From positions 310,001-374,000 of the forward strand of contig NZ_CP114905.1 in NCBI RefSeq assembly GCF_027497195.1: a stretch of DNA of 64,000 nt. Reading direction: 5' to 3'. This document shows positions 10,048 through 63,137 of this stretch, piece by piece. This stretch comes from Streptomyces sp. WMMC500 (GTDB lineage: Bacteria; Actinomycetota; Actinomycetes; Streptomycetales; Streptomycetaceae). The first letter of the stretch is position 1. Each line of letters starts with the position of its first letter. The position numbers were made by a program, and so were the translations under genes. The notes below the pieces were generated by a model that made no database searches, was not told the DNA's origin, and saw only the letters and a list, made by a program, of their open reading frames with translations.

Positions 10048-10067
10048 GATTGTATATGATATTTGAA
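10048..10067. promoter_or_regulatory. AT-rich operator/promoter element, site 1
   Basis: GATTGTATATGATATTTGAA lies in the divergent gap between the PaaG-like crotonase (start 9944) and the MaoC gene (start 10080). It matches site 3 at 15 of the first 16 bases. Only 12 bases separate it from the MaoC start, so it probably overlaps the -10 region. Confidence 0.7.
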
Positions 10068-10079
10068 CTGGAGGCTCAC

Positions 10080-10532
10080 GTGCGTGTGCTCAACGGAATC
10101 GACGAACTGCGCGCAGCCGTCGGCGACCACCTCGGCTACAGCGGCTACAGAACGGTCACGCAGGCCGACATCGACGCGTTCGCCGCCCTGACCGGTGACC
10201 ACCAGTGGATCCACGTCGACCAGGAGCGGGCCGCGTCCGGGCCCTTCGGCACGACGATCGCGCACGGCCTGCTCACGCTCGCGCTGGGGCCGCGGCTGGT
10301 GGGCGACGTCTACCGGATCGAAGGGACGCGGATGGGCGTGAACTACGGCTACGACCGCATCCGCTTCCCCGCCCCCGTCCCGGTCGACTCCAAGGTCCGG
10401 GTGGGCGCGGTGTTGGAGGCGGTCGAGGATGTGCCCGGCGGCGTCCAGGTCCGCATGGCGTTCACCTGGGAGATCGAGGGCGGGGACAAGCCCGCGTGTG
10501 TGGCGGCCATGCTGCTGCGCTACAGCGCGTGA
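10080..10532 (+). CDS. MaoC-like single hot-dog (R)-enoyl-CoA hydratase
   Basis: 150 aa from GTG 10080 (GGAGG 5 bases upstream); in-frame starts further upstream would run through the AT-rich element. The hydratase 2 signature is visible as DAFAALTGDHQWIHVD, holding the catalytic Asp and His, followed by IAHGLLTLAL. Family members hydrate trans-2-enoyl-CoA to (3R)-hydroxyacyl-CoA in the cytoplasm. First gene of an operon with a thiolase (18 bases downstream) and an SDR, which gives hydration, oxidation and thiolysis in one transcript. Confidence 0.88.
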   Translation: MRVLNGIDELRAAVGDHLGYSGYRTVTQADIDAFAALTGDHQWIHVDQERAASGPFGTTIAHGLLTLALGPRLVGDVYRIEGTRMGVNYGYDRIRFPAPVPVDSKVRVGAVLEAVEDVPGGVQVRMAFTWEIEGGDKPACVAAMLLRYSA

Positions 10533-10549
10533 AGGAGAGTGGAGGACGG

Positions 10550-11764
10550 ATGCGTGAAGCGGTCATCTGCGAGCCGGTGCGTACACCCGTCGGCCGGTAC
10601 GGCGGTGCGCTGCGCGACGTACCCGCGGTCGGCCTGGCGGCGACCGTCCTGCGCGCGCTCCTCGGACGCACCGGTCTGACCTCGGACGACATCGACGAGG
10701 TACAACTCGGCCAGTGTTACCCGACCGCCGAGGCACCGGCCATCGGCCGGGTCGCCGCGCTGGACGCCGGTCTGGACGAGACCGTCACAGGTCTGCAGAT
10801 CGACCGACGGTGCGGCTCGGGGCTGCAGGCGGTGCTCAACGCCGCGATGCAGGTGCGTACGGGTGTCAGCGAGCTCGTGATCGCGGGCGGCACCGAGAGC
10901 ATGAGTTCCGCCGCGTTCTACTCGACGGAGGCCCGCTGGGGCACGAAGGGCGGGGCGCTCACCTTCCACGACGCCCTGGCGCGCGGGCGCACCACCGCGG
11001 GCGGGCAGTTCCATCCGGTGCCGGGCGGGATGCTGGAGACGGCGGAGAACCTGCGTCGCGCGTACGGCATCTCCCGGCTGGAGCAGGACGAGCTGGCGCT
11101 CACCTCCCATCTGCGTGCCGTCGAGGCCCAGCGCTCGGGCCGGTTCGCCGAGGAGCTCGTCCCGGTGGAGGTGGCCGGGCGCAGAGGCGCGACCGTGGTC
11201 GACACCGACGAGCATCCGCGGCCGGACGCGTCGTTGGAAGCGCTGGCACGGCTGCCCCCGGTCATGGGCGGGGACGACGACCAGGCGACGGTCACGGCCG
11301 GCAACGCCAGCGGCCAGAACGACGGCGGCGCGGTCTGCGTCGTCACCCACCCGGACAACGCCGAGCGACTCGGCCTGCGCCCGCTGGCCCGGCTGGTCTG
11401 CTGGGCGGTCGCCGGTGTGCCGCCCCGCACCATGGGCACGGGCCCCGTCCCCGCCACCCGGACCGCGCTGGAACGCGCGGGACTGAAGCTCGCAGACATC
11501 GACCTCATCGAGATCAACGAGGCCTTCGCCGCCCAGGTCCTGGCATGCGCGCGGGAGTGGGGCTTCGGGGCGCCCGACTGGGAGCGGACCAATGTCAACG
11601 GATCCGGGATCTCCCTCGGCCACCCCGTCGGCGCCACCGGCTGCCGCATCCTGGCCACGCTGCTCCGGGAACTCGACCGCCGCCAGGGCCGCTACGGCCT
11701 GGAGACGATGTGCATCGGCGGCGGCCAGGGCCTGACCGCGATCTTCGAACGGGTCACGGGCTAG
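10550..11764 (+). CDS. Thiolase (acetyl-CoA acyltransferase)
   Basis: 404 aa; ATG 10550 with GGAGGACGG just upstream. It has the full thiolase set: nucleophilic Cys88 (DRRCGSG), an NEAFA motif, His in GHPVGATG and the second Cys in CIGGGQG. It should cleave 3-oxoacyl-CoA with CoA to acetyl- or propionyl-CoA and a shortened acyl-CoA. Length is normal for the family. It lies between a MaoC hydratase and an SDR, so a beta-oxidation role is well supported; the substrate is unknown. Confidence 0.93.
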
Positions 11765-11921
11765 CAGTCATGTTAGGACAGGTGGGGGACGCGTGTGCCG
11801 GGCGCGCCGGCGAGCCCGTGCGCCGCCACGCACGCTCCGGTGCCACCGCCCACAGACCGACTGTCCGGAGATCTGGAAGAAACCGCCCAGCGCCGACCCG
11901 CCACAGGGCAAAGGAGCCTCG

Positions 11922-12665
11922 ATGAAACTTCTCGACGGGCGGACCGCGATCATCACCGGCGCCGGCCAGGGCATCGGCCTCGCCATCGCCGGGGTCTTCG
12001 CCGCCCACGGCGCACGGCTGGTCGTCGCCGACGTCAATCCCGACGCGGCCGACGCCGCCGCCGAGGCCCTGTCCGACAGCGGGGCACAGGCCGTGTCCGT
12101 ACGCTGCGACGTCACCGTCGAAGAGCAGGTGGAGGGGCTCGTCGGAACGGCTGTCGGACGGTACGGCGCCCTGGACGTCCTGGTCAGCAACGCGGGCATC
12201 ACCCGGGACGCCACGCTCCGCACGATGACCGCCGCTCAGTTCCGCGAGGTCATGGACGTCCATCTCCTCGGTACCTGGCTCGGCATGAAGTACGCCGCGC
12301 CACACATGCGCGAGCGGCGCAGCGGCGCCATCGTCAACATCTCGTCGATCTCCGGGAAGGTGGGCCTGCCCGGGCAGACCAACTACAGCGCGGCCAAGGC
12401 GGGCGTCGTCGGCATGACGAAGGCGGCGGCCAAGGAACTCGCGCACCGGGGGGTCCGGGTGAACGCCATCCAGCCCGGTCTGGTCCGCACCGCCATGACC
12501 GAGGCGCTGCGGCCGGAGGTCTGGCAGGAGAAGCTGGCGGGAGTCCCGATGGGCCGGGCGGCGGAGCCCGCGGAGATCGGCACGGTGGCGCTGTTCCTGG
12601 CCAGTGACCTGTCGAGCTATATGACCGGTGCCGTGCTCGAAGTCACGGGTGGCCGCCACATGTGA
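11922..12665 (+). CDS. Short-chain dehydrogenase/reductase, FabG-like
   Basis: 247 aa; ATG 11922 with an AAGGAG ribosome site. Rossmann motif TGAGQGIG (12-19), NAG (90-92), catalytic Ser142, Tyr155 and Lys159 (NYSAAK). FabG-like enzymes oxidise or reduce 3-hydroxyacyl thioesters with NAD(P). Third gene of the site 1 operon after MaoC and thiolase; the 157-base gap before it holds nothing I recognise. The likely role is dehydrogenation of the (3R)-hydroxyacyl-CoA made by the MaoC enzyme. Confidence 0.9.
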
Positions 12666-14079: not shown

Positions 14080-14095
14080 GATTATATATATTATC
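14080..14095. promoter_or_regulatory. AT-rich operator/promoter element, site 2
   Basis: GATTATATATATTATC, a near-palindrome, sits between the divergent SDR (start 14056) and FadD3-like ligase (start 14119). It shares the GATT start and ATAT core of the other island sites. Confidence 0.65.
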
Positions 14096-14118
14096 CATAA
14101 CTTGAGAGGGGGTACAGC

Positions 14119-15753
14119 ATGCCCACCACAGATCCGCGCGCCGATCTACGCTGGGGCACCACCGGAGGGCTGCTGAGCGACGCAGCCGCACGGCTGGGTC
14201 CCACAGAAGCCGTGGTCGACGGACCGGTCCGCTGGTCGTACGCCGAACTCGATGCCCAGGTCACCCGGCTGGCCCGGTCGTTCCTCGCGAAGGGACTGGC
14301 CAAGGGCGGCCGGGTGGCGGTCTGGGCCCCGAACTGCGGCAAGTGGATCGTCACGGCCCTCGCCCTGCAACGGGCCGGCGGGGTGCTGGTACCGCTCAAC
14401 ACCCGGTTCAAGCCGGCCGAAGCCGCCTACATCCTGGCCAGGAGCGAGGCCCAGATGCTCGTCGTCACCGGCGAGTTCCTCGGCCGTGACTACGCGGCCG
14501 GGCTCGCCGCCGAGGCGGGACCCGGTGAGGGCGGCCTCCCCTACGCCGCGTTGCCGTCCCTCACGACCGTGGTCGTGATGGACGGCGACGCGGCGGCCCC
14601 CCTCCTGTCCTGGGAGCGCTTCGTGGACCTGGGCGCGCGGGTGTCCGAGGCGGACGTGTCCCGGCGGGCGGGCGTCCTCGGACCCGACGACCTGTCCGAC
14701 ATGCTGTTCACCTCGGGCACCACCGGCCGCCCGAAGGGCGCGATGAGCACCCATGGCCAGACCCTGCGGGCGTACGCGGTCTGGGCCCAGGTCGTCGGGC
14801 TGCGCGAGCGAGATCGCTACCTCGTCGTGAATCCCTTCTTCCACGGCTTCGGCTACAAGGCCGGCTGGCTCGCCTCGTTGATCGTCGGGGCCACCGTCCT
14901 GCCCGAGCGCACCCTCGACGTACCGCACCTGCTCGAGGTCGTCCGGGACGAGCGTGTCACGGTCCTGCCCGGCACCCCGACGCTCTACCAGACCATGCTC
15001 GAGCACCCCGACTTCCACGCCGACGGCGTCGCGGACCTGCGGCTGGCGGTGACCGGTGCCGCCAGTGTGCCGCCCAGTCTGCTGGCGCGGATCAAGGAGG
15101 AGGTCGGCTTCGACCACGTCGTCACGGGCTACGGCCTCACCGAGTCCTGCACGATCGTCTCGATGTGCCGGTACGACGATCCCCCCGAGACCGTGGCGAC
15201 GACCTGCGGCCACCCCCTGCCCGGCCTCGAGGTCGCCGTGCACGACAGCGCCGGCGCGGCCCTGCCGCCGGGGCAGGAGGGCGAGATCGTCGTGCGCGGA
15301 TACACGGTCATGAAGGGGTACTTCGGCGAGGACTCCGAGACCGCGGCCGCCATCGACGCGGACGGCTGGCTGCACACCGGCGACATCGGCCTGCTCGACC
15401 CCGACGGCCGGCTGCGCATCACGGACCGGATGAAGGACATGTACATCGTCGGCGGGTTCAACGCCTACCCGGCGGAGATCGAACGCATCCTCGACGGCCA
15501 CCCCGGCATCGCGCGCTCAGCCGTCGTGGGGGTCCCCGACGTGCGCCTGGGCGAGGTGGGCGCGGCCTTCGTGATACCGCGGCGCGGTACGACGCTCGAG
15601 CCGGACGCGGTGATCGCGTGGGCCCGGGCGAACATGGCCAACTACAAGGTGCCCAGGCAGGTCCACGTGGTCGCGGACCTGCCGGTCAACGCCGCGGGGA
15701 AGGTCGTCAAGGGTGAACTGCGCGATCGCCTCTCCGCAACCGGACACGGCTGA
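14119..15753 (+). CDS. FadD3-like acyl-CoA synthetase (AMP-forming)
   Basis: 544 aa; ATG 14119 after GAGAGGGG. ATP-binding loop TSGTTGRPKG (198-207), YGLTES motif, GDIG, the hinge ITDRMKDMYIVGG and catalytic Lys528 (AAGK). The segment NPFFHGFGYKAGWLASL closely resembles the mycobacterial FadD3 subfamily, which activates the HIP propionate side chain of steroid ring remnants. The similarity is from memory of the family. A bulky alicyclic carboxylate is therefore a reasonable substrate guess. The stop codon abuts that of the convergent CoA-transferase within TGATCA (15751-15756). Confidence 0.88.
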   Translation: MPTTDPRADLRWGTTGGLLSDAAARLGPTEAVVDGPVRWSYAELDAQVTRLARSFLAKGLAKGGRVAVWAPNCGKWIVTALALQRAGGVLVPLNTRFKPAEAAYILARSEAQMLVVTGEFLGRDYAAGLAAEAGPGEGGLPYAALPSLTTVVVMDGDAAAPLLSWERFVDLGARVSEADVSRRAGVLGPDDLSDMLFTSGTTGRPKGAMSTHGQTLRAYAVWAQVVGLRERDRYLVVNPFFHGFGYKAGWLASLIVGATVLPERTLDVPHLLEVVRDERVTVLPGTPTLYQTMLEHPDFHADGVADLRLAVTGAASVPPSLLARIKEEVGFDHVVTGYGLTESCTIVSMCRYDDPPETVATTCGHPLPGLEVAVHDSAGAALPPGQEGEIVVRGYTVMKGYFGEDSETAAAIDADGWLHTGDIGLLDPDGRLRITDRMKDMYIVGGFNAYPAEIERILDGHPGIARSAVVGVPDVRLGEVGAAFVIPRRGTTLEPDAVIAWARANMANYKVPRQVHVVADLPVNAAGKVVKGELRDRLSATGHG

Positions 15754-17039: not shown

Positions 17040-17057
17040 GATTGTATATAATATTTG
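17040..17057. promoter_or_regulatory. AT-rich operator/promoter element, site 3
   Basis: GATTGTATATAATATTTG between the divergent CoA-transferase (start 17007) and crotonase (start 17067). It contains a TATAAT hexamer at 17047-17052. If that is the -10, transcription would begin inside or next to the ribosome site of the crotonase, giving an almost leaderless mRNA. Confidence 0.72.
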
Positions 17058-17066
17058 GGAGGCTGT

Positions 17067-17885
17067 GTGGGCTCGGACTACGTGTCGGTGCCGGGACTCG
17101 GCGTGCAGGTCGACGGTGTCGTCCTGCGCATCACCCTGGACAACCCGGAGCGCCGCAACGCGCTCGACGACACCTCCGTCGCGGCGTTCATCGCGGCGCT
17201 CGAACGGGCCGCGACGGACGAGCGGCTGCGCGCGGTGCTGCTTTCCGGCGCCGGCGGGACGTTCTGCAGCGGTTTCGACATCCTCGGCCGCAACGCCGGG
17301 CGCGGGGGTGACCCCAGGCCCCGGACCGGCAGCATCCAGCGCAGGCTGCCCACCCAGGCGGGCCGGCTCATCCCCCTGCTGTGGGAGGTCCAACTGCCGG
17401 TGGTCTGCGCGGTCCGGGGCGCGGCCGTCGGCATCGGGGCGCAGCTCGCCCTCGTCGCCGACTTCACCGTCGCCGCGGCCGACGCCCGCCTGTGGTATCC
17501 GTTCGTTCGCCGTGGCTTCACTCCGGACTCCGGCAGCACCTGGCTCCTCCCCCGCGCCGTCGGGCCGCTCAGGGCCCGGCAACTGCTCATGCTCGGCCGC
17601 GCCGTGACCGGCACCGAGGCGGAGGACTGGGGTCTCGCCCACGCCGCGGTCCCCGACGACGAGGTCATGGCCACCGCCGAGCGGCTCGCGGCGGAGCTGG
17701 CGGACGGCCCCACCGTGGCCCTGGGGCTGACCAAGGCCCTGCTCGCCGCCGGCGCCGATCACGACCTGCGCAGGCAGCTCGCCGACGAGGCGTACGCCAT
17801 GGAGCTGAGCAGTCGCAGCCCGGACTTCCGCGAGGGCCTGCGGGCCTTCGCGGAACGCCGCGCCCCCGGCTTTCAGGGCCGGTGA
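17067..17885 (+). CDS. Enoyl-CoA hydratase/isomerase family protein, PaaG-like
   Basis: 272 aa from GTG 17067 (GGGAGG 4 bases upstream); an upstream in-frame TTG lies in the AT-rich element. The crotonase fold has GAGGTFCSGFD and AAVGIGAQLAL. As in the protein at 9159, the classical Glu pair is missing, and GFTPDSG supplies the PaaG-type Asp ahead of the LLPR segment. Double-bond isomerisation or an unusual ring reaction is more likely than hydration. The last 13 bases overlap the convergent epimerase gene. Confidence 0.85.
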   Translation: MGSDYVSVPGLGVQVDGVVLRITLDNPERRNALDDTSVAAFIAALERAATDERLRAVLLSGAGGTFCSGFDILGRNAGRGGDPRPRTGSIQRRLPTQAGRLIPLLWEVQLPVVCAVRGAAVGIGAQLALVADFTVAAADARLWYPFVRRGFTPDSGSTWLLPRAVGPLRARQLLMLGRAVTGTEAEDWGLAHAAVPDDEVMATAERLAAELADGPTVALGLTKALLAAGADHDLRRQLADEAYAMELSSRSPDFREGLRAFAERRAPGFQGR

Positions 17886-18850
17886 CGGCGGAACCAGGCG
17901 ACCGCGTCGCGCACCGTGTCCTCGATCGGCCGCGGCGTCCAGCCCAGCTCCGTCCTCGCCCGGGAGTTGTCGTACGGGCCGAACCCGCAGGCCAGTTCGA
18001 CGGCTTCCGGGCGCAGGTCGACGTGGTGACCGCCCAGCCTGGCCGCGCTCGCGACGACCCGCGCGGCCGCCATGGCCCAGCGCACCGGCACGGGACGGGG
18101 TGGACGACGGCCCGACGCGCCTGCCGCCAGGGCGAAGAGGCGCTCGTGCGCGACCTGATCGGCGACCACGATGTAGCGCCGTCCGGGCCGTCCCCGCTCG
18201 GCCGCCAGGACCATCGCCTCGGCGGCGTCCCTGACGTCGACGCACGGCATCGTGGCGCTGAGCGCGAACCGCAGCCGGCCCGTGGCCGCCCGCCGGAGCA
18301 GCGCGCCCTGCGGGGTGGGTTGCGTGTCGCCGGGGCCGAAGGTGGTGCCGACGCACATGGAGACACCGCCGAGCCCGCGCTCGCGGCAGTAGCCGAGCAG
18401 GCGCCGCTCCCCTGCGACGCGCGACCTCACGTACGCCGGAGCCCCGGCCCAGTCGAACGCGTCCTCCTCCGTCGCCGGGCGGCTCCGGGGGCGGCCGACG
18501 GTCGCGATGCTGCCCGCGAGCACGAACCGGTGCACGTGGGCGCGTACCGCCGCGTCCATGGCGTTGGTCAGGCCCCGGACGTTGCACGCGAACAGCGGCG
18601 CCGGATCGCGCAGCAGCGCCCGGGTGTCCACCGCGCAGTGGAAGACGGTGTCACAGCCGGACGCCGCCGCCTCGAGGGACGCCGTGTCAAGCAGGTCGCC
18701 GTAGCGCAGGTCGGGGTCGAGGCCGCGCAGTCCGGCCAGGTCGCTGGTGGTACGCACCAGGGCACGCGGCCGGTAGCCCCCGGCGTGCAGCAGGCGGACC
18801 ACGTGCGAGCCCAGGTAGCCGCTGGCACCCGTCACGAGCACGGTCCTCAT
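17873..18850 (-). CDS. Extended SDR, NAD-dependent epimerase/dehydratase family
   Basis: 325 aa; ATG 18850 seven bases after the stop of the upstream crotonase. TGASGYLG near the N-terminus binds NAD(P), and HCAV and AGSIA are typical of extended SDRs (dihydroflavonol reductase or 3beta-HSD-like). The YxxxK active site appears as YVRSR, with Arg in place of Lys, which is uncommon and may alter or weaken catalysis. Last gene of a five-gene minus operon starting at 23554. Oxidation or reduction of a cyclic alcohol/ketone is a plausible role. Confidence 0.8.
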   Translation of the reverse strand: MRTVLVTGASGYLGSHVVRLLHAGGYRPRALVRTTSDLAGLRGLDPDLRYGDLLDTASLEAAASGCDTVFHCAVDTRALLRDPAPLFACNVRGLTNAMDAAVRAHVHRFVLAGSIATVGRPRSRPATEEDAFDWAGAPAYVRSRVAGERRLLGYCRERGLGGVSMCVGTTFGPGDTQPTPQGALLRRAATGRLRFALSATMPCVDVRDAAEAMVLAAERGRPGRRYIVVADQVAHERLFALAAGASGRRPPRPVPVRWAMAAARVVASAARLGGHHVDLRPEAVELACGFGPYDNSRARTELGWTPRPIEDTVRDAVAWFRRHRP

Positions 18851-18856
18851 GAGGCG

Positions 18857-19651
18857 TCAGTCGTCCTTCCACTCCGGCTCGCGCTTGGCGGCGAACGCGG
18901 CGGGGCCCTCGGTCTGGTCCGGATGCCCCCAGAGGCCGACCAACTCGGCCGCCCCCGCTCTGCACGCGTCCGTGAGCCCGTACTCGAGCGCGCCCCACAG
19001 CGCCCGCTTGGTGGCGCGCAGCGCGGCCGGCGAGTTCATCGCGATCTTCTCGGCCAGCGCCTGCGCCGCGTCGTGGAGCCGGTCCGGAGGGTCGACAAGT
19101 TCGCCGACCAGGCCGAGTTCCCAGGCCCGGCCGGCGGGCATGCGCTCGTACCGGCCGACCAGCGCCATGCGGAACACCGCCTCGGCCGGCATCTTGCGGA
19201 TCAGGCCGATCGTCTCGACGGCGCTGACCTGGCCGACGGAGACGTGCGGGTCGGTGAACGAGGCGTCGGCAGCGGCCAGCACGATGTCGGCGTCCGCCAC
19301 GAAGTGCAGGCCGCCGCCCGCGCAGACGCCGTTGACGGCCGCGATCACCGGCTTGTCGATGCCGAGGTGCCACGCGGTGAAACCGAGGTCGAAGTTCTCC
19401 AGCGAGTCGCGGTAGCGCTCCATGCCCTGGCCGTCGGTGGCCAACTCGACGACGTCCGCGCCCGTCTGGAAGTCACGGCCGTGTCCGGCGTTGACGATCA
19501 CCCGGACACCCGGGTCGGCCGCGAGCTCCCCCCAGGCGGCGCGCAGTTCGTCGCGCATCGCGCTGTTCATGGCGTTGCGGCGGTCGGGCCTGTTGAAGAC
19601 CAGCCAGCCGACCCGGCCTCGGCGGAACACGTCCAGGGTCGTGTAGCTCAT
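18857..19651 (-). CDS. Enoyl-CoA hydratase/isomerase family protein, DPH type
   Basis: 264 aa; ATG 19651 overlaps the stop of the upstream ligase in ATGA, so translation is probably coupled. NAGHGRDFQTGAD and GVCAGGGLHFVAD are the oxyanion-hole regions. The classical Glu residues are not in place; instead FTDPHVSVGQVSAVE is shared in form with the crotonases at 23620 and 52290. The three form a distinct subgroup in this island with unknown exact chemistry. It lies between ligase and epimerase in the site 4 minus operon. Confidence 0.85.
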   Translation of the reverse strand: MSYTTLDVFRRGRVGWLVFNRPDRRNAMNSAMRDELRAAWGELAADPGVRVIVNAGHGRDFQTGADVVELATDGQGMERYRDSLENFDLGFTAWHLGIDKPVIAAVNGVCAGGGLHFVADADIVLAAADASFTDPHVSVGQVSAVETIGLIRKMPAEAVFRMALVGRYERMPAGRAWELGLVGELVDPPDRLHDAAQALAEKIAMNSPAALRATKRALWGALEYGLTDACRAGAAELVGLWGHPDQTEGPAAFAAKREPEWKDD

Positions 19652-23590: not shown

Positions 23591-23618
23591 TTGTATCATC
23601 GATATGATATACAATCAA
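23591..23618. promoter_or_regulatory. AT-rich operator/promoter element, site 4
   Basis: Read on the minus strand it begins GATTGTATATCATAT and shares TTGATTGTATAT-ATAT with site 3. It is bounded by a perfect inverted repeat, TTGTAT (23591-23596) and ATACAA (23609-23614). It lies in the gap between starts at 23554 and 23620. A TATGAT hexamer at 23603-23608 would place transcription start within a few bases of the GTG at 23620. Confidence 0.72.
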
Positions 23619-42307: not shown

Positions 42308-42361
42308 TCTCCCGCGCCGTCGCACCCGGCACTGCCCGGCCCCCGTTGCCGAGGAGGCACG

Positions 42362-48702: not shown

Positions 48703-48750
48703 GCCCGCACACCCGGTCGCCGCCGTCCGGAAAGGTTGCCGGTCGACGAG

Positions 48751-48771
48751 GATAAGATATATAAAATAATC
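48751..48771. promoter_or_regulatory. AT-rich operator/promoter element, site 8
   Basis: On the minus strand it begins GATTATTTTATATATC. It lies 20 bases before the ALDH start (48791). It is the only site of the set not between divergent genes, and it serves the six-gene ALDH-P450-SDR operon. Confidence 0.65.
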
Positions 48772-48790: not shown

Positions 48791-50260
<1,470 letters not shown>

Positions 50261-50265
50261 GAGCG

Positions 50266-51090: not shown

Positions 51091-51098
51091 GAGAACCG

Positions 51099-52286: not shown

Positions 52287-52289
52287 GCC

Positions 52290-53111: not shown

Positions 53112-53153
53112 CCGGCTCGGCCGGCACGTGGCGCGGACGTATCGGAGGTGAGG

Positions 53154-53966: not shown

Positions 53967-54012
53967 TCCGCGCCGGCGGTCCCGTCCGTCCATTCCTTCG
54001 AGAGGTGCTCCC

Positions 54013-54846
54013 GTGAGTCAAGAAGTGCTGGTCGTGGTCGGTGCGGGCGGTATGGGCCGGGTGATCGCCCGGCGTCAGGGTGCCGGCCGGGTCGTGCTGC
54101 TCGCCGACCAGGACGACTCCGCGCTCGACGCCGCCGCCCGGACGCTGACCGAGGACGGGCACCGGGTGCACACCCGGCAGCTCGACGTGTCCGACCGGGA
54201 TGCCGTCGCCGAACTCGCCGCAACGGCGGAGAAGCTGGGGCGGGTCGCACAGGTGGTGCACACGGCGGGCCTGTCCCCCGTCCAGGCACCCGTGGCCGCC
54301 ATCCTGAGGGTGGACCTCCTGGGAGTCGCACTGGTCCTCGACGCCTTCGGTGCCGTGATCGCGCCGGGTGGCGCCGGCGTGGTGCTCGCCAGCATGGCCG
54401 GGCACCTGGCCGGCGCGCTCCCGCCCGAGCAGGAGGCGGCACTCGCCCACACCCCCGGCGACCAGTTGCTGGCGCTGCCGTTCCTCGGCCCGGAGGCGAT
54501 CACCGACACCTCGCAGGCGTACTGCCTCGCCAAGCGCGCGAACCAGCTACGCGTCCGCGCCGCGAGCACGGCCTGGGGCGAACGTGGCGCTCGCGTCAAC
54601 TCGATCAGCCCGGGCGTCATCTCCACCCCCATGGGCAGAAGCGAGCTTGCCGCCGACACCGGTGCCTTCATGCAGGCGATGGTCGACGCCTCCGGTACCG
54701 GCCGGCTCGGCAGCCCCGACGACATCGCGGCGGCGACGGCGTACCTGCTCGGTCCGGAGGCGAGCTTCGTCACGGGCAGCGATCTGCTGGTGGACGGGGG
54801 TGCGGTCGCCGCGCTGCTCTCCGGGCGGGTGGAGATGTCGGGCTGA
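54013..54846 (+). CDS. Atypical short-chain dehydrogenase
   Basis: 277 aa from GTG 54013. The nucleotide loop is VVGAGGMG, without the second conserved spacing of classical SDRs. HTAG replaces NNAG, and the catalytic pair is YCLAK; SPGVISTP and VDGG are normal. The divergent cofactor loop recalls the SDRs annotated as putative or FabG-like in actinobacterial P450 clusters. Last gene of the operon, ending in a hairpin shared with the convergent Liv genes. Confidence 0.82.
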   Translation: MSQEVLVVVGAGGMGRVIARRQGAGRVVLLADQDDSALDAAARTLTEDGHRVHTRQLDVSDRDAVAELAATAEKLGRVAQVVHTAGLSPVQAPVAAILRVDLLGVALVLDAFGAVIAPGGAGVVLASMAGHLAGALPPEQEAALAHTPGDQLLALPFLGPEAITDTSQAYCLAKRANQLRVRAASTAWGERGARVNSISPGVISTPMGRSELAADTGAFMQAMVDASGTGRLGSPDDIAAATAYLLGPEASFVTGSDLLVDGGAVAALLSGRVEMSG

Positions 54847-54877: not shown

Positions 54878-55618
54878 TCAGCCCAGATATGCGGCCCTGA
54901 CCACCGGGTCCGCTCGGATCTCGGCGGGCCTGCCGTCCGCGATCACCCTGCCCAGGTTGAGCACGACCACCCGTTCGCTCAGGCCCATGACGAACTGCAC
55001 GTCGTGCTCCACGAGGAGAACCGTCGTGTCCAGCGTGCGGATCACCTCGGCGAACCGCGCGGTCTGCTCGGCGTCCAGACCCGAGGTGGGCTCGTCGAGG
55101 AGGAGGACGGCGGGGTCGTCCACGATGGCGCGCGCGAGTTCGACCATCCGGCGCCTGCCGATCGGCAGTTCCGCGGCGTGGACGCCCGCGAGGTCGTCGA
55201 TCCCGCAACGCCGCAGCGCGTCCACGGCGCGCGCGCGACGCCCGTGTGCCAGACGGCGCCGAGGGCGCCAGCCGACGAGGTCGGCGGCGAGGCCGCCGCC
55301 TCCGCCGTGCCATTCGAGCGCCGCCAGGACGTTGTCGAGCACGGTCAGCCGGCCGAACACCTGCGGGCGCTGGAAGGTCCGGCGCACCCCCAGGTGGGAC
55401 CGGTGCAGCGCGCCGGCACCCGTGACGTCCCTGCCGCGCAGCCGCACCGTGCCGGACGTGGGCCGGCGCAGCCCGCTGACCACGTCGAACAGCGTGGTCT
55501 TACCGGCACCGTTGGGCCCGATCAGGCCGCAGACAGCGCCCTCGGGGATGGTCAGGCCGATGTCCGTCAGGGCGTGCACACCGCCGAAGCGGACGTTGAC
55601 TCCGTCAATGCTGATCAC
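54878..55618 (-). CDS. Branched-chain-type ABC transporter ATPase (LivG-like)
   Basis: 246 aa; GTG 55618 lies within the end of the upstream fusion gene (14-base overlap). Walker A GPNGAGKT, signature LPIGRRR, Walker B LLLDEPTSGLD and H-loop VEHD. The long insert of about 35 residues after the Q-loop is typical of LivG. It is the second ATPase of the importer; the first is fused to the permeases. Confidence 0.93.
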   Translation of the reverse strand: MISIDGVNVRFGGVHALTDIGLTIPEGAVCGLIGPNGAGKTTLFDVVSGLRRPTSGTVRLRGRDVTGAGALHRSHLGVRRTFQRPQVFGRLTVLDNVLAALEWHGGGGGLAADLVGWRPRRRLAHGRRARAVDALRRCGIDDLAGVHAAELPIGRRRMVELARAIVDDPAVLLLDEPTSGLDAEQTARFAEVIRTLDTTVLLVEHDVQFVMGLSERVVVLNLGRVIADGRPAEIRADPVVRAAYLG

Positions 55619-58292
55619 TGGTCAGCTCCGTTTCGGCGAGTCCCAGGTAGGCCGATGCCAGGCGCTCGTCGTCGACGTCGGACCGTGGCCCGAGCCAGGC
55701 CACCCGCCCCAGGCGCATGAACGCCACGGTGTCGGCCAGCCGGAGGGCTTCGGTGGCCTTCTCCTCCACGATGACGATGGCGGCACCCCTGTCCCGCAGC
55801 TCACCGAAGAGCTGGAAGACCTGGTCGACGACGAGGGGCGCCAGGCCGAGCGAAGGCTCGTCCGCGATCAGCACCTTCGGCGGGTGTACGAGGAGCGGGG
55901 CCAGCGCCAGGATCTGCTGCTCGCCGCCCGACAGGGCGCCCGCGGCGATGGCGCGGCGCTCCTTGAGGCGGGGCAGCCGCTCGTACACCGACTGCCTGTC
56001 CGCGTCCCGGGGAAGGGAGACGGCGAGATTCTCCTCGACCGTCAGCGCCGGGAAGACGCCGCGCCCCTCGGGGGCGAGGAACACCCCCGCGCGTGCCCTG
56101 CGGTGGGCCGGCCAGGCGGTGATGTCCCGGCCGTCCAGCAGTACCCGGCCGCCCACCGGCCGTAGCGTGCCGGCGGCTGCCGCGCACAGGGTGGTCTTCC
56201 CCCCGCCGTTGGCGCCGAGGAGCGCCACGACGCTGCCGGCCGGTACGTCGAGGTCGACGCCGCGCAGGACGGTGGTGTCGCCGTACCCGGCGACGATCGA
56301 CTCCAGCCGCAGCAGGGCGCGCGGCCGGTCGGGGACCGGGTGCCGGGGTGGCGGAGCCCCGGCCGCCTGCTCTTCGCGGCGCTCGCGCCTGTGCCTGTGG
56401 TAGCGGCGCTCGGCGAACTGGGCGAGGAGACCGTCCGGGTGCTTGGCCAGCAGGATGCCGCCCAGCCCGAAGAGCACGGCACCCAGGTGGGGAGATTCGG
56501 TGACCAGCGCGAGCAGCTCCGGGAACAGCGCGACCATCAGCCCGGCGAGCACCGCGCCGCCGATGCGCCGGACGCCCTGCAGCACCACGACCGCCAGCCA
56601 GACGAACCCCGACATCGCCGGCAGGTCGGTGACCGTGATCCGGCCGGCGACCGTCCCGTACAGTACGCCGCCGAGTCCGGCGATGCAGGACGACAGGGCG
56701 AAGAGGGTGAGCTTGGCCCGGGTGGCGGAGATGCCGGCCGACAGCGCGGCCGTCGGCGCCGACCGGACCGCCAGGATGGCGCGGCCGGAACTCGAGCGCT
56801 CGAGGTTGCGGACCATCAGCATGACCAGGCCGATGAGCGCGAGCAGCAGCACGATCTGCACCCGGTGATCGCTCGTGTCGGCGAAGCCCAGTGACAGGGG
56901 AGGCAGTTCCCAGCCGACGCTGCCGTTGCTGAAGGAGTCGATCTGGAAGAGCACCTGGTCGGCGATCAGTGCCAGCGCGAACGTGGCGAGGGCCAGGACA
57001 CGTCCGCCGAGCCGCAGCGCGGGCAGCGCCACGACCAGTCCCGCGACCGTCGCGGCCAGCACGCCGAGCGCCATGGCGACGGCGTACGGAAGGCCGCTGT
57101 GGAAGGCGTAGCCGACGGTGAGGGCGGCGAGCGCGGCGAACGACGCCTGCGCCAGGTTGATCATCCCGCCGATCCCGGTGACGACGACGAACGAGCTGAA
57201 GATCAGGGCGAGTACGAGGCCGTGCGCGACGAGGCCGGTCCAGTACGCATCCCCCACGGTGAACGCCCACACCACCAGAGCGGCCGTGCCCACCGACCAC
57301 GGCAGCGCGCGGCGCAGCCGGGGCACGTCGGCGAGGTAGTCGGGCGGGGGTGTGTCCTCGGCGATCGATCCGGCGAGGCGTTCGCGCGACCGGTTGAACA
57401 CGAGCAGGCCGGCGAACAGGAGCAGGGCCGGTATCGCACTGCGCAGACCGGTGATGTCCTCGGCGAAGCCGGCGTATCCGACGACCAGGTTCTGTACGAC
57501 TCCGAGGGCGAGGCCCGCCGCGAAGGTCACCGGTATCGACTGCAGCCGCCCGAAGACCGCGGCGGTTGCGGACGCGAACAGCAGCAAGGTGAAGGCCGAG
57601 GCGTCGACGCCGAGGACGGGGATCGCGAGCACGCCGGCCAGCGCGGCGAGCGTAGAGCTGAGCATCCAGGCCTGCGCCGATGCGGCGTCGGCGTCGATGC
57701 CGCGCAGCGTCGCGAGGTTCCTGCGGTCCACGGTCGCCCGCATGCGCAGGCCGAGAGGCGTGTGCCGCATCACCGCCCACAGTGCCACGGCGGCGACGGC
57801 GGCGAACGCGAAGGTCGTGACCTGGTCGGAGTCCAGCGTGAGCCAGGAGGACGGATGCCAGTTCTCCACCGGCCTCGGTCCGATCCCGCGGGCGCTCCTG
57901 CCCTCGGTCATGGCCGGGACGTCCGCGCCGGCGGAGATCAGCAGATCGACGATCCACATGCCCAGGGCGGGCAGGGCGATGCTGAGTCCGATGGTCGCGA
58001 CGATCTGCGCGATCTCCCCGGAGGTGGACAGGCCCTTGAACATGACCCGGTGCAGAACGTAGCCCAGGAGCGGCGCCACGACGCCCACGGCGACGAGGGC
58101 GGCGAGCCACGGCGGCCAGCCCGCTCCGGTGGTCAGCTGGAAGAAGAGCAGCGCGCTGACGAAACCGATGGCGCCGTGCGCGAAGTTCAGCACGCCGGTC
58201 GCCGCGTACGAGAGCGTCAGCCCGGACGCCATCACCGCGAAGATCGCACCTGTCACCAGCCCGCTCAGCACATAGCCGACAAGCTCCGTCAT
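55605..58292 (-). CDS. LivH-LivM-LivF fusion: two permeases and one ATPase in one chain
   Basis: 895 aa from ATG 58292. Residues 1-300 are a LivH-type permease (GLTLSYAATGVLNFAHGAIG). About 330-625 are a LivM-type permease (GLVLALIFSSFVVVTGIGGMINLAQASFAA). A basic, Pro-rich linker spans about 626-660, and residues about 661-895 are a LivF-type ATPase with Walker A 693-700 (GANGGGKT), signature 787-793 (LSGGEQQ) and Walker B VLIADEP. The three are separate genes in the classical system. The frame is open throughout, with no sign of readthrough errors. It imports a branched-chain-like or carboxylate substrate across the membrane with the SBP at 58352 and LivG at 54878. Confidence 0.93.
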   Translation of the reverse strand: MTELVGYVLSGLVTGAIFAVMASGLTLSYAATGVLNFAHGAIGFVSALLFFQLTTGAGWPPWLAALVAVGVVAPLLGYVLHRVMFKGLSTSGEIAQIVATIGLSIALPALGMWIVDLLISAGADVPAMTEGRSARGIGPRPVENWHPSSWLTLDSDQVTTFAFAAVAAVALWAVMRHTPLGLRMRATVDRRNLATLRGIDADAASAQAWMLSSTLAALAGVLAIPVLGVDASAFTLLLFASATAAVFGRLQSIPVTFAAGLALGVVQNLVVGYAGFAEDITGLRSAIPALLLFAGLLVFNRSRERLAGSIAEDTPPPDYLADVPRLRRALPWSVGTAALVVWAFTVGDAYWTGLVAHGLVLALIFSSFVVVTGIGGMINLAQASFAALAALTVGYAFHSGLPYAVAMALGVLAATVAGLVVALPALRLGGRVLALATFALALIADQVLFQIDSFSNGSVGWELPPLSLGFADTSDHRVQIVLLLALIGLVMLMVRNLERSSSGRAILAVRSAPTAALSAGISATRAKLTLFALSSCIAGLGGVLYGTVAGRITVTDLPAMSGFVWLAVVVLQGVRRIGGAVLAGLMVALFPELLALVTESPHLGAVLFGLGGILLAKHPDGLLAQFAERRYHRHRRERREEQAAGAPPPRHPVPDRPRALLRLESIVAGYGDTTVLRGVDLDVPAGSVVALLGANGGGKTTLCAAAAGTLRPVGGRVLLDGRDITAWPAHRRARAGVFLAPEGRGVFPALTVEENLAVSLPRDADRQSVYERLPRLKERRAIAAGALSGGEQQILALAPLLVHPPKVLIADEPSLGLAPLVVDQVFQLFGELRDRGAAIVIVEEKATEALRLADTVAFMRLGRVAWLGPRSDVDDERLASAYLGLAETELTSDQH

Positions 58293-58315
58293 GCGGGGTC
58301 TCCCAAGAGACTAGG

Positions 58316-58343
58316 GCCCGTCGGTCCGGCCGCGCCGACGGGC
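58316..58343 (-). terminator. Intra-operon hairpin between SBP and permease genes
   Basis: Perfect 9-bp stem GCCCGTCGG (58316-58324) and CCGACGGGC (58335-58343). It lies between the substrate-binding protein stop (58352) and the permease start (58292). Such hairpins commonly reduce read-through or stabilise the upstream SBP message so that binding protein exceeds transporter. Confidence 0.65.
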
Positions 58344-58351
58344 GAAGTGGA

Positions 58352-59620
58352 TCACTTCTCGAAGCACTCGAGCGGCTGTGCCTCGACGAACTCGCCTTGG
58401 CGCACCTGAACCAGCGCCGAGCAGGGGCTCGGCTCCGTCCTGCTCCGTGGGAAGCTGAGTTTGCCGACGGCCGGGTTCTCGTACTGCAGCTTGTCGAGCG
58501 CGGCGCGGTACCTCTCGGCGGTGACGTCCTTGCCCGCCTCCTCCAGCGCCGTCAGGAACATGTCGGCCGCCCAGTAGCCCATCGCCGTGGCCTGCGTGAA
58601 GACGTGCTCGGGCTCCTCCTTGCGGACGTCGTCCATCATCTGCTCGACCTCGGGGATGTCCGCCTCGAAGGGAGCGAAGGAGACCCCCGTGTAGACGCCT
58701 TCCATGACCTGTGCCCCCTGGGGGTCGGCGAGCAGCCTGGGGTCGTAGCTCGTGGCGTCGACGATGATCCCCTCGTACCCCGCCTTGCGCAGAGCGCCGT
58801 ACAGGCCCAGGTTCGTCGCACCGGACATGATCGAGAACACGACGTCGGGCGGGCCACCGCCGTCGGACTTCATGATCTTGTTGAGGTACGGGAGCCAGTC
58901 CTGCGGCGGGGCGGCCGCGGGGACCGACGCGGACGCACCAGCCACCTCGTAGCCGGCGGCGGCCCACAGCTCGTCGGCCTGCCGCACCCCGTTCGAGCTG
59001 TCACTGTTGTCGATGCCCTGGATCCAGACCGACTGCCCGTCGGCCCTGCCGTCCTTGCCGCCGAGCACGTCCGCTATCTGGTGCTGCGTGTATCCGCGGC
59101 TCCACAGCAGATCCTCGTCCTCGGTGTCCTCCGGCTGCAGGCAGCCGCTCACCCCGTACGAGAGCTTTGACGTACACCAGCCCCTGCTGACCCCCCAGCC
59201 GAACCTCGTGACGCCGGCGTCCTCCGCGACGGGCGAGGTCCCGGCGCCGAACGCGACCCACGGGACGATGGCGAAGACCTCCTCCCGCTGCACCAGCTTC
59301 TTGACGGCCGCATCGGCGGCTGCTGCGGTCATCGTGTCGTCCTCGGCGCCGATGAAGTCGATCGTGCGGCCGTCCACCCCGCCTTCGGCGTTGGCCCTCG
59401 CGAACCGGGCCGCGGCACCGACCTCCGCCTCGGCCGTCGTGTAGCCGACCGGGCTGGTCTTGGTGACCAGCCCGCCTACCTTGATGGTGTCGCCCAGGAC
59501 ATCGCCCTCGTCGGACCCCCCGGACCCGTCGCTCTCCGCGGCGCAGCCCGCCGACAGCGTGATCAGCGCCACCGCCGCGGCCAGCCACGACCTGGCCTTG
59601 GCGACCTTGTAACCGTGCAT
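58352..59620 (-). CDS. Liv-type substrate-binding lipoprotein
   Basis: 422 aa from ATG 59620 (CGGGAG upstream). A signal peptide ends in LSAGC with the lipidated Cys26, followed by an acidic Ser/Gly-rich linker. The mature part is a type I periplasmic binding fold (VGGLVTKTSPVGYTTAEAEVGA near the start). It catches the ligand outside the membrane for the fused Liv permease. First gene of a three-gene minus operon, divergent from the 59773 gene across site 9. Its ligand is unknown; the context favours a catabolic substrate over amino acids. Confidence 0.92.
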   Translation of the reverse strand: MHGYKVAKARSWLAAAVALITLSAGCAAESDGSGGSDEGDVLGDTIKVGGLVTKTSPVGYTTAEAEVGAAARFARANAEGGVDGRTIDFIGAEDDTMTAAAADAAVKKLVQREEVFAIVPWVAFGAGTSPVAEDAGVTRFGWGVSRGWCTSKLSYGVSGCLQPEDTEDEDLLWSRGYTQHQIADVLGGKDGRADGQSVWIQGIDNSDSSNGVRQADELWAAAGYEVAGASASVPAAAPPQDWLPYLNKIMKSDGGGPPDVVFSIMSGATNLGLYGALRKAGYEGIIVDATSYDPRLLADPQGAQVMEGVYTGVSFAPFEADIPEVEQMMDDVRKEEPEHVFTQATAMGYWAADMFLTALEEAGKDVTAERYRAALDKLQYENPAVGKLSFPRSRTEPSPCSALVQVRQGEFVEAQPLECFEK

Positions 59621-59707: not shown

Positions 59708-59727
59708 AACAATATATAAGATACATG
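59708..59727. promoter_or_regulatory. AT-rich operator/promoter element, site 9
   Basis: AACAATATATAAGATACATG lies between the divergent SBP (start 59620) and the 59773 gene. It has the AT-rich core and shares ATAAGATA with sites 8 and 10 but lacks the GATT start, so it is the weakest member. Confidence 0.5.
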
Positions 59728-60535: not shown

Positions 60536-61726
60536 TCACCCTGTCCCGAAGACCCCGACGAAGCTCACCATCTCCCCCGGATAGCCGCCGAGATTGTGGG
60601 TCAGCGCGAGTGACCGCTTCCCGTACGTGCCGACGCGTCGCCCGGCGGGCGCCTCGTCCCGCAGTTGCAGCCACGCCTCGAACACCATGCGCAGGCCCGA
60701 CGCCCCGACGGGGTGGCCGAAGGACTTCAGCCCGCCGTCGGGGTTGACGGGCACCTCGCCGTCGAGGTCGAAGGCCCCCTCCCGGACGAGGCGGTGGGCG
60801 GTGCCGCGCTCGGCCAGCCCGAGGTCTTCCAGGAGCACGAGCTCCGCGGGCGTGAAGCAGTCGTGGACCTCCGCGAGCGCGAGCTCCGCCCGCGGGTCGC
60901 GGATGCCGGCCTGGCGGTACGCCTCCTGCGCCGCGGCCGTCACCTCCGGGAACGTGGTGTAGTCGTAGTCCGGGTCCATCAGCCCGGAGCCGTCCCCGGA
61001 CACGAACGACAGCGCCTTGACCAGCAGCGGCTTGTCCGTGTACCGATGGGCGTCCTCCGCCCGCACCACGACCGCCGCCGCCGCGCCGTCGGCCACGCCC
61101 GCGCAGTCGAGTACGGACAGCCGCCCAGCGACCGGAGGCATCGCGCACAGTCGCTCGACGGAGATCTCCTTGCGGAACTGGGCCCGCGGGTTCCGGGCGC
61201 CGTTGGCATGGTTCTTCGACGCGATGCGCGCAAGGGCCGTCCGCAGCTCCTCCTCGGCGACCTCGTAGCGCGCGGCGTATGCGGGGACGATCATCGAGAA
61301 CATGGCGGCGGCGGTGAGCGAGCGCGCGGTACCGTCCCCCGGGATCGGGAAGGCGTTGAGACCCTGGTGACCGGAGTCCTTGACCTTCTCGCAGCCGATG
61401 GCCACGGCGACGTCGTAGGCTCCGCTGGTGACGGCGTAGGCCGCCTGGCGCAGCGCCTCGGATCCGGTCGCGCAGTAGTTCTCGACCCTCGTCACCGGCT
61501 TGTTCGCAAGGCGCAGCGGGCGCGACAGGGCGAGCCCGCTCATGCCGGACTGCACCGTGCCGAGCCAGAAGGCGTCCACCTCGCCCTTGCCGATTCCGGC
61601 CGACGTGAAGGCATCCTGGGCCGCCTCGATCAGCAGGTCGTCGAAGCCCATGTCCCAGCGCTCGCCGAAGCGCGTGCACCCCATGCCGACGATCGCGACC
61701 CGGTCGGTGATTCCGTGTGATCCCAT
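60536..61726 (-). CDS. SCPx/Ltp-type thiolase
   Basis: 396 aa; ATG 61726, one base after the stop of the upstream HMGCS-like gene. Nucleophile in ENYCATGSEA, His in EVHDCFTPAE and second His in KSFGHPVGASG, the SCP2-thiolase arrangement. It should cleave 3-oxoacyl-CoA, or act as a retro-aldolase as the related Ltp2 does with a DUF35 partner. The DUF35-containing partner is coded directly upstream, which strongly suggests a complex. Confidence 0.9.
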   Translation of the reverse strand: MGSHGITDRVAIVGMGCTRFGERWDMGFDDLLIEAAQDAFTSAGIGKGEVDAFWLGTVQSGMSGLALSRPLRLANKPVTRVENYCATGSEALRQAAYAVTSGAYDVAVAIGCEKVKDSGHQGLNAFPIPGDGTARSLTAAAMFSMIVPAYAARYEVAEEELRTALARIASKNHANGARNPRAQFRKEISVERLCAMPPVAGRLSVLDCAGVADGAAAAVVVRAEDAHRYTDKPLLVKALSFVSGDGSGLMDPDYDYTTFPEVTAAAQEAYRQAGIRDPRAELALAEVHDCFTPAELVLLEDLGLAERGTAHRLVREGAFDLDGEVPVNPDGGLKSFGHPVGASGLRMVFEAWLQLRDEAPAGRRVGTYGKRSLALTHNLGGYPGEMVSFVGVFGTG

Positions 61727-61727
61727 G

Positions 61728-63098
61728 TCAGACGCCCTTCTCGCGGACGGGCCGCGCCTTCCAGAAGTAGTTGTGCACGCCGTCGGCGGTGTGCAGCCGG
61801 CGGAAGGTCATCTCGACCCGGTCACCGATCGCCGGCTCCTCGCCGTCGACGTCGGTCAGCTCCACCGGGAGCCGTCCGCCGCCGTCGAAGTCGACGACCG
61901 CGAACAGCACCGGCGGGCTGGGCGAGTAGGCGAGGCGGTCGACGGTGCAGGTGACGACCGTCCCCCGGCGTCCGGCCATCGGGACCGCCGTCGAGTCGAG
62001 GGGCGACGGCGGGAGGCTGACCGTTCCGCCTTCGTCCGCGGAGCCCACGAACCCGAACTTCCAGTCCTGGTTGCGCAGCGCCGCCGAGGCCGAGGCGCGA
62101 GCCGGCTCGGGCCGGCGCGGCGGTTCGGGGGCCACCATCCCGCGCCAGGCCAGGAAGGTCAGATACGGCACGCCGCGGCCGTGGTCGAGCTGGTCCGCCA
62201 TCGGAAGCGGGTGCGGATGCTCCCGCAGGGCGGGCGTCGTACGCCACACGAACGCGTCCGCACCGTCGGCGAGCGAGACGAGCACCACCACCTGGCCGGG
62301 GGCCGCCCGCTCCAACGCGGCCGCGAGCAGGAACGCCGGCTGCGCCGCTCCGGGGTTCCCGACCCGTCCGTCCAGCCGGTCGGTGACGGCCCCGGCCGGT
62401 ACGCCCGAGCGCGCCGCGACCGCCTCGGCGGACTTCGCGTGCAGTCCCGCCACGACGAGGGCACCGACCTCGCCGGGGGCGACCCCGGCCGCGTCGAGGA
62501 CGGACGTGACCACCTCGTGCCCCAGGTCGGCGTAGACCTTCTCGCCGAACCTCTCCTCCCACAGCCGCGACACCGGCTCCCCGGGGATGCGCCACCGGTC
62601 CAGGAACTCCGCGGTGACCGACGCCGTGGCCACCAGTTCGGCCAGCACGGGGCCGTCGTCGTCGGAGCCGAGGACGAGTGCGGCGGCGGCATCGCCGCCG
62701 GCGGCTTCGTCGGGCCCGCCGGGGCGGCCGGTTCGCAGGTCGGAGACCACCACGAGCGTCGGCCCCGCCGCGGTCAGGCCGGTACGCAGCGCTCCCGTCG
62801 CGGAGCGCACCGAGCCGATCGCGTCGTAGGCGGTGCAGGTCCGGTCCAGGCGCAAGGCCGCATGCACGGCCGTCGCGTTGGTCCGGTCCAGATAGGGCGG
62901 ATCAGCGGTGGCGAACCAGAGTTCGGTCGGCGCCGCCCGGGCGTGGCGGAGTGCCAGGCGCGCCGCCGCCACCCCCATCGTCGTCGCGTCCTCGTCGTAT
63001 CCGGCAACCGACCGCGCCCCGGACCGCGCCGGTGTGATCCGGCCCCGGTCAAGGCGCCAGAAGGGGACGTAGGTGCCCCAGCCAAGGATTCCTCGCAT
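61728..63098 (-). CDS. HMG-CoA-synthase-like domain fused to DUF35 OB-fold
   Basis: 456 aa; ATG 63098, with only a distant GGAG upstream. Residues about 1-300 follow the HMG-CoA synthase/KAS III fold (GTYVPFWRLDR, EDATTMGVAAARLAL). At the active-site loop the sequence is AIGSVRSATGAL, with no Cys where the nucleophile is expected. Residues about 340-456 form a DUF35 OB-fold (CTVDRLAYSPSPP, GDRVEMTFRRL), but the paired Cys of a zinc ribbon are absent. In archaea HMGCS, DUF35 and thiolase form one complex; here two parts are fused and the thiolase follows. It may be a CoA-channelling scaffold rather than a synthase. Confidence 0.83.
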   Translation of the reverse strand: MRGILGWGTYVPFWRLDRGRITPARSGARSVAGYDEDATTMGVAAARLALRHARAAPTELWFATADPPYLDRTNATAVHAALRLDRTCTAYDAIGSVRSATGALRTGLTAAGPTLVVVSDLRTGRPGGPDEAAGGDAAAALVLGSDDDGPVLAELVATASVTAEFLDRWRIPGEPVSRLWEERFGEKVYADLGHEVVTSVLDAAGVAPGEVGALVVAGLHAKSAEAVAARSGVPAGAVTDRLDGRVGNPGAAQPAFLLAAALERAAPGQVVVLVSLADGADAFVWRTTPALREHPHPLPMADQLDHGRGVPYLTFLAWRGMVAPEPPRRPEPARASASAALRNQDWKFGFVGSADEGGTVSLPPSPLDSTAVPMAGRRGTVVTCTVDRLAYSPSPPVLFAVVDFDGGGRLPVELTDVDGEEPAIGDRVEMTFRRLHTADGVHNYFWKARPVREKGV

Positions 63099-63117
63099 GA
63101 CGTCAGGTTAACTCCAT

Positions 63118-63137
63118 CTTGTATAAGATATCTAATC
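63118..63137. promoter_or_regulatory. AT-rich operator/promoter element, site 10
   Basis: On the minus strand it reads GATTAGATATCTTATACAAG, with the palindromic core AGATATCT. It lies in the 56-base gap between divergent starts at 63098 and 63155. Confidence 0.65.

Follow-up and report, generated by a model that had tools for sequence, protein, structure and literature searches.

A palindromic A/T-rich motif confined to a catabolic island of Streptomyces sp. WMMC500 tracks a GntR/FCD protein, its probable regulator

What reads the A/T-rich elements that punctuate a stretch of otherwise very G/C-rich Streptomyces DNA? The window analysed here, 64,000 nucleotides of Streptomyces sp. WMMC500 (positions 310001-374000 of a genome that is a single contig of 8,614,341 bases with a GC content of ~73%), holds ten such elements in the gaps of a large island of acyl-coenzyme A (acyl-CoA) catabolic genes. 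The elements share a 17-bp palindrome, TTGNAT-N5-ATNCAA, that is confined to the island, is conserved in orthologous islands of other genera and co-occurs with a GntR protein carrying an FCD effector domain. We consider it highly probable that they are operators of this one VanR-type regulator, encoded in the same, apparently acquired, island.

Apart from the ten elements, no run of 20 bases in the window includes 14 or more A/T. A preliminary description of the window had placed nine of them between divergent genes, and composition-based gene calls (with approximate starts) agree, the tenth, at 48751, lying in a tandem gap. Its four plus-strand positions are exact; its four minus-strand elements are present but shifted by 2–5 bases, being located at 23602, 28233, 48756 and 63122. 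It had also seen no elements in the left flank, and we found zero AT runs across genome 280-319 kb. To the right of the window the series continues with four further elements (genome 377339, 378180, 381126 and 383958/383971) and then ends; a single AT run (14/20, at 398968) lies outside 320-384 kb within genome 280-430 kb. The island therefore spans genome ~319.16 to 384.0 kb (~65 kb) with 14 elements, and the one large catabolic regulon proposed earlier holds in that its motif is island-confined and conserved, its extent needing correction to genome ~384.0 kb, past the window edge.

The motif was learned from 56 AT-rich elements of seven orthologous islands (L037, L038, L040, L041, L043, L047 and L049), found in Actinocorallia, Actinomadura, Thermomonospora and metagenome-assembled genome loci; the window was unseen by the model. 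Expectation-maximisation, with the composition of the elements themselves as background, yielded a palindromic model of width 17 that reads TTGNATANNNTATNCAA, and unconstrained models gave related but less symmetric strings. With this model the 14 elements of the Streptomyces island score 9.6–16.8 bits (mean 12.95), the last (383948) holding two overlapping candidate 17-mers of 9.2 and 10.2 bits, whereas 500 dinucleotide shuffles of the elements average 1.08 bits (standard deviation 0.87, maximum 3.71). Four separately run data sets returned the same palindrome: the orthologous islands, this island alone (TTGTATATNATATACAA), GntR loci without the island (TTGTATA...TATACAA) and loci of 40%-identical GntR relatives (TTTGATAAATTATCAAA). 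From these runs we excluded locus L045 (no-island set), L053, a near-copy of L052 (40% set), and the low-GC tail of L057. When up to two mismatches are allowed, the commonest spacer between paired TTGNAT and ATNCAA is exactly 5 bases in each of the four GntR-linked sets (12, 29, 21 and 10 pairs, against medians over 13 spacers of 2, 9, 5 and 2), and in 540 kb of control the distribution is flat (range 3–12, with 8 at spacer 5). Spacers 0 and 12 are also raised in the first three sets, and spacer 4 in the third.

The leading GATT that the preliminary description had noted is the outer portion of the left half-site. The A that stands three positions ahead of the 17-mer is conserved (65%), and some sites have extended arms, AGATTGAAT-N5-ATTCAATCT in L047 and CAGATTGGAT-N5-ATGCAATCTG in L040. 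Locus L044 carries, at 29-60, two head-to-tail CTTGATA units preceded by GATA and followed by CAAG, a direct repeat of the half-site with a 7-base period that is reminiscent of the repeated NanR operator.

Base composition might by itself produce such a series, if the elements were -10 boxes in A/T-rich promoter cores or places where an Lsr2-like silencer nucleates; either would gather on any acquired island. Lsr2-type proteins favour AT-rich gaps, operator C is an example of an element containing TATAAT, and the island's GntR and TetR proteins are foreign to the genus and order samples. Same-composition shuffles nevertheless reach 1.1 bits against 12.95 for the elements, the motif has palindromic symmetry and favours a spacer of 5 bases, and it recurs around GntR in other genera whether the island is present or not. 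Moreover, 20 evenly spaced 20-kb stretches of the same genome (400 kb) contained 20 other AT runs, four of them with at least 16/20, all without the motif; the maximum score was 6.5 bits and no site of at least 8 bits was found in those 400 kb. Shuffles and control runs together rule out non-specific AT-richness, and we regard promoter cores or silencer nucleation as a very improbable account.

String searches agree on confinement at high stringency. With at most one mismatch, TGTATATNATAT has 10 matches in the genome, all within 320051-383970, where they fall on nine elements (one matched twice), and the reversed control has 0. Allowing two mismatches lowers the specificity: of 34 places, 21 fall in the island and 13 elsewhere, and the reversed control gives 23. 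Each of the remaining 294 genomes in the genus sample has 0–2 occurrences of TGTATATNATAT at one mismatch, with four exceptions, G274 (4), G276 (3), G290 (12) and G190 (42), and the reversed control is about equally frequent in G290 (15) and G190 (36). The consensus TTGNAT-N5-ATNCAA occurs at 7 places with at most one mismatch, 5 of them in the island; with two it occurs at 102 places against 89 for the reversed control, so that the loose 17-mer is not specific alone. As far as genome-wide density and conservation could be checked, both favour a regulon, because the motif is confined to the island (at one mismatch, and against the 400 kb of sampled control) and sites recur in all seven orthologous islands.

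Within the island the sites are distributed by gap type. Counting gaps of at least 40 bases, sites occupy 10 of 10 divergent, 4 of 18 tandem and 0 of 2 convergent gaps, and 0 of 7 divergent gaps in the flanks. Operator H occupies the sole site-bearing tandem gap within the window. For 12 of the 14 operators the centre is 14–65 bases away from whichever start codon is nearer (75 for E and 122 for B), which fits repression of the flanking units. In operator C the right half adjoins a GGGAGG string immediately 5' of a start codon. Operators F and I correspond to the elements at 34157 and 59708, both earlier called weaker, yet by score F is among the three strongest; F and J each have one mismatch to the consensus.

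The island's sole GntR is a 248-residue protein encoded at genome 377396-378142 on the minus strand, 3.4 kb right of the window. It has an N-terminal GntR winged helix (PF00392, E 2.9e-15) and a C-terminal all-helical FCD domain (PF07729, 41 bits against a cutoff of 24). There is no close paralog: the next ten GntR-like matches in the genome have 26–39% identity over parts only. At E <= 1e-40 no counterpart of the protein was found in the other genomes of the 295-genome genus sample; orthologs of 65–74% identity occur in Actinocorallia, Actinomadura, Thermomonospora and uncultured relatives, and the best database match (84%) is, by its source name, from Streptomyces sp. NPDC056716.

Sites follow this protein beyond the island. 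Counted per 10 kb, the density of sites of at least 10 bits is 1.97 for the island and 1.5 for two island loci outside training (6 sites, one in L131 and five in L135). Around GntR orthologs whose loci lack the island it is 1.07, with 23 sites spread over 10 of 11 loci; near seven 40%-identical GntR relatives, which come from Amycolatopsis and Actinomycetospora, it is 1.59, again with 23 sites and with all 7 loci represented. No such site was found in the 400 kb of own-genome control, 140 kb of control from the relatives, 84 kb of flanks or the unrelated loci L059-L060. These counts are not independent events, because several loci are near-copies of one another; 8 of 13 further gntR regions repeated earlier loci and were not counted again. 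In the region upstream of gntR itself, 18 of 21 loci have a best score above the 95% level of their own mononucleotide shuffles, and among them are 12 of the 14 loci outside training. In the no-island loci, sites adjoin a P450/luciferase-like unit and an acyl-CoA ligase (L044), aldehyde dehydrogenase and thiolases (L055) and acyl-CoA dehydrogenases (L136).

The preliminary description had instead put forward the TetR proteins of the island as candidate binders. Operator G does lie upstream of the TetR gene at 46592, its centre 135 bases from the start; orthologs of this TetR (55–67%) are conserved in the orthologous islands, and palindromes of such a size are common among TetR-type operators. 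The upstream site, however, is present in this genome only: all nine distinct TetR orthologs lack one within 350 bases upstream (best score -0.1 bits or less), and the motif tracks the GntR/FCD protein instead. Among 200 family genomes, this TetR (E <= 1e-25) occurs in 8, all with the GntR, whereas 5 of the 13 GntR genomes (E <= 1e-60) are without it; four of these five keep a site within ~2.4 kb of gntR (L039, L136, L137 and L140), the fifth being L045. For the other TetR, at 37980, no ortholog was found in the orthologous loci, each at most 20.7 kb long. A TetR as the main binder was rejected because upstream sites are not conserved and four of the five GntR genomes without the TetR keep a site. 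The TetR proposal is probably wrong, and there is little chance that the operators belong to either protein. A single regulator over a large acyl-CoA catabolic region is likewise found in the KstR and KstR2 steroid regulons; those are TetR-family proteins with different operators, and the motif here does not track the TetR at 46592. To our knowledge, the operator is not that of KstR or KstR2.

With GntR as the preferred regulator, a dimer would bind the 17-bp palindrome, at one operator in each divergent promoter gap and upstream of four further units, gntR itself included. Bound GntR would block the -10 or start region and thereby repress the flanking units. We infer that a pathway intermediate, most likely an acyl-CoA or an acid, would bind the FCD domain and release GntR, switching on ~58 genes together. 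GntR could also bind the sites and activate, or repress some units only, with TetR or local regulators superimposed: the island encodes two TetRs, 14 of 18 tandem gaps have no site, and site strength spans 9.6 to 16.8 bits. The closeness of 12 of 14 operator centres to start codons, by contrast, fits repression, and Atu1419, also an FCD regulator, acts as a repressor, with palindromes that overlap -10 boxes (PMC7797058). We judge activation or partial repression unlikely, but worth keeping in view.

Several observations weigh against the simple picture of one GntR dimer on one palindrome. Three of the 21 gntR loci have no site upstream of the gene and 13 more reach only 4.1–8.4 bits; in five loci only does the best score exceed 9.5 bits. 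The GntR ortholog locus L045 has no site of at least 9 bits in 12 kb. In a class-wide sample of 19 short GntR loci (2.1–3.7 kb), 8 have such a site and 11 do not, the proportion depending on identity to the GntR: 6 of 6 at 50% or more (two of them from a training genome), 2 of 10 at 45–49% and 0 of 3 lower. TTGNAT direct repeats with a one-base gap are enriched in the four sets (18, 44, 31 and 12, against 12 in the control), so that what is recognised may be other than a simple dimer palindrome, and overlapping half-sites may matter. Counts of the string TTGNATWWNWWATNCAA are unspecific, with matches in 196 of 200 family genomes; the 13 GntR-positive genomes total 94 matches against 41 for the reversed control, and we did not use them as evidence. 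A second GntR, 52–57% identical to the first, is encoded in five of the seven training islands (Table 1) and may share or divide the operators there. Finally, the motif is palindromic and A/T-rich but its spacing differs from the FadR-subfamily box TKGT-N2/3-ACMA.

How far do known regulators guide interpretation? VanR-type FCD proteins hold a metal through one Asp and three His. The predicted structure of the GntR (mean predicted local distance difference test score 78.5, six effector-domain helices) matches Atu1419, TM0439 and other FCD proteins in the PDB. VanR-type FCD proteins (Atu1419 of Agrobacterium and AlkR, 9isw) are the best fold matches, with Atu1419 closest (Foldseek E about 1e-8, 23–25% identity). 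Shared with VanR-type regulators are the winged helix and FCD domain and the placement of sites in divergent catabolic gaps, that of the regulator's own gene included. Unlike them, the island GntR has no histidines in the last two FCD helices (190-206 and 210-234); His156 is the only invariant His of its effector domain and His105 is nearly invariant. Judging from alignment and model, the usual FCD metal site appears incomplete.

The operators differ as well. Atu1419 binds the 10-bp ATGTATACAT (PMC7797058), unlike the 17-bp palindrome here, whose half-sites are 5 bases apart. FadR-subfamily sites are typically A/T-rich palindromes with the consensus box TKGT-N2/3-ACMA, the TKGT/ACMA boxes being common but not obligatory, with exceptions that include NanR and BioR (PMC4494728). 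The island motif departs from that box, conservation being highest at AT...AT and the spacer larger. The half-site TTGTATA resembles NanR TGGTATAW and FarR TGTATTAWTT as both are given in PMC4494728, and, like FadR, NanR and FarR operators, the sites are A/T-rich and often in divergons. The operator geometry is thus unusual within a well-known regulator family, and a standard VanR-type mechanism is not to be assumed, because the spacing misfits the consensus and metal ligands appear to be missing. An argument about specificity from the helix-turn-helix residue at the FadR Arg35 position was dropped; the published correlations make Asp G/C-preferring too.

The regulon is real and island-confined, its regulation by GntR is what we infer, and it is apparently undescribed: the motif strings matched no paper, and among the papers listed by wider literature searches no title or abstract opening points to the island or the regulator. 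More tentatively, and with somewhat less than even confidence, we picture a self-contained portable regulon in which one metal-site-less FCD GntR and a wide-spaced, near-G/C-free palindrome at 14 operators control a complete ~58-gene degradation pathway. If so, the circuit would be private to the island, because such operators are very unlikely by chance at this GC content, and would still work once moved from one order to another; further acyl-CoA pathways throughout the actinomycetes would come under regulators of this clade. For a large uncharacterised catabolic island, the analysis supplies a regulator and an operator that can be tested: deleting a single gene, or adding one inducer, should turn on the pathway as a whole and show what its substrate is. 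The island would also be a clean example of how control may stay with a pathway that has moved horizontally, the host offering almost no competing sites because the operator is so A/T-rich. The operator is further a signature by which one clade of actinobacterial GntR proteins can be searched for.

Proteins of the orthologous islands are mostly 60–87% identical to those here, and gene order is partly shuffled. Comparison of these sequences suggests that the native home of the island is probably the Actinocorallia/Actinomadura/Thermomonospora group, because the seven orthologous islands sit there, and that the window copy was acquired horizontally. The ~58 genes encode acyl-CoA ligases, acyl-CoA dehydrogenases, enoyl-CoA hydratases (ECH), thiolases, CoA-transferases III and short-chain dehydrogenases/reductases (SDR), together with two Baeyer-Villiger-like monooxygenases (BVMO), an F420-type oxidoreductase, a P450, lipases, two amidohydrolases and a Liv-type ABC transporter. 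In the five-gene operon, the fifth protein has a weak FAS1-DH match below cutoff. No Rfam match at gathering thresholds and no tRNA were found in the window.

Table 1. Predicted operators and main genes. Coordinates are those of the window unless a locus is named; operator scores come from the model trained only on orthologous islands from other genera.
Feature	Coordinates	Strand	Context or remark	Score (bits)
Operator A, TTGTATATGATATTTGA	10050..10066	.	Divergent gap, enoyl-CoA hydratase vs MaoC-like/thiolase/FabG unit	12.1
Operator B	14082..14098	.	SDR/SnoaL unit (-) vs FadD3-like acyl-CoA ligase (+)	16.7
Operator C, TTGTATATAATATTTGG	17042..17058	.	CoA-transferase III (-) vs enoyl-CoA hydratase (+)	13.0
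Operator D	23598..23614	.	Five-gene minus operon vs ECH/acyl-CoA dehydrogenase plus operon	12.9
Operator E	28229..28245	.	GDSL lipase (-) vs quinone oxidoreductase/acyl-CoA ligase unit (+)	13.1
Operator F	34155..34171	.	SDR (-) vs F420 luciferase-like (LLM)/BVMO/lipase/TetR unit (+)	16.0
Operator G	46449..46465	.	ECH/acyl-CoA dehydrogenase unit (-) vs TetR gene (+)	13.2
Operator H	48748..48764	.	Upstream of aldehyde dehydrogenase/P450 unit	10.2
Operator I	59710..59726	.	Liv-type ABC transporter genes (-) vs 244-aa protein (+)	10.9
Operator J	63119..63135	.	Thiolase/OB-fold unit (-) vs CoA-transferase III (+)	15.9
Enoyl-CoA hydratase family	9159..9944	-	First gene of the island
MaoC-like dehydratase, thiolase, FabG-type SDR	10086..12665	+
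FadD3-family acyl-CoA ligase	14212..15753	+	Exceeds NCBIfam cutoff
Five-gene operon: epimerase-like, ECH, acyl-CoA ligase, acyl-CoA dehydrogenase, fifth protein	17873..23554	-
F420 LLM oxidoreductase, two BVMO-like, two hormone-sensitive-lipase (HSL)-type lipases, TetR, zinc-type alcohol dehydrogenase, SDR	34203..43327	+
TetR	37980-38591	+	Inside the 34203..43327 unit
TetR regulator	46592..47224	+	Conserved in orthologous islands
Aldehyde dehydrogenase, SDRs, cytochrome P450, ECH	48791..54846	+
Liv-type ABC transporter: LivG-like, fused permease/LivF-like, substrate-binding protein	54878..59620	-
Thiolase-domain protein and HMG-CoA-synthase-like/OB-fold (ChsH2-type) protein	60536..62978	-
Second GntR, L037	5489-6169
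Second GntR, L038	3411-4070
Second GntR, L041	3767-4444
Second GntR, L043	4097-4825
Second GntR, L047	3422-4081

Some individual proteins deserve mention. The HMG-CoA-synthase-like protein with a ChsH2-type OB-fold domain (window 61728-62978) adjoins the thiolase-domain protein, an arrangement that resembles side-chain retro-aldol systems. A kinase of the aminoglycoside-phosphotransferase (APH) fold at window 31002-32033, within an acyl-CoA ligase/dehydrogenase operon, is probably a small-molecule kinase of the pathway; in L044 a similar APH-fold kinase adjoins a site. Two Amidohydro_2 proteins (window 47375-48652; genome 378192-379382) have 79–87% identity in other genera and are among the best-conserved island proteins, a degree of sequence conservation that suggests a central pathway step. 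Beside operator I, a 244-residue protein (window 59764-60498) has no NCBIfam or Pfam match and has relatives of 63–68% identity in several orthologous islands. Farther right of the window, at genome 408293-417502, a 3069-aa open reading frame is followed by frames of 1760 aa and at least 1288 aa, perhaps a large biosynthetic cluster.

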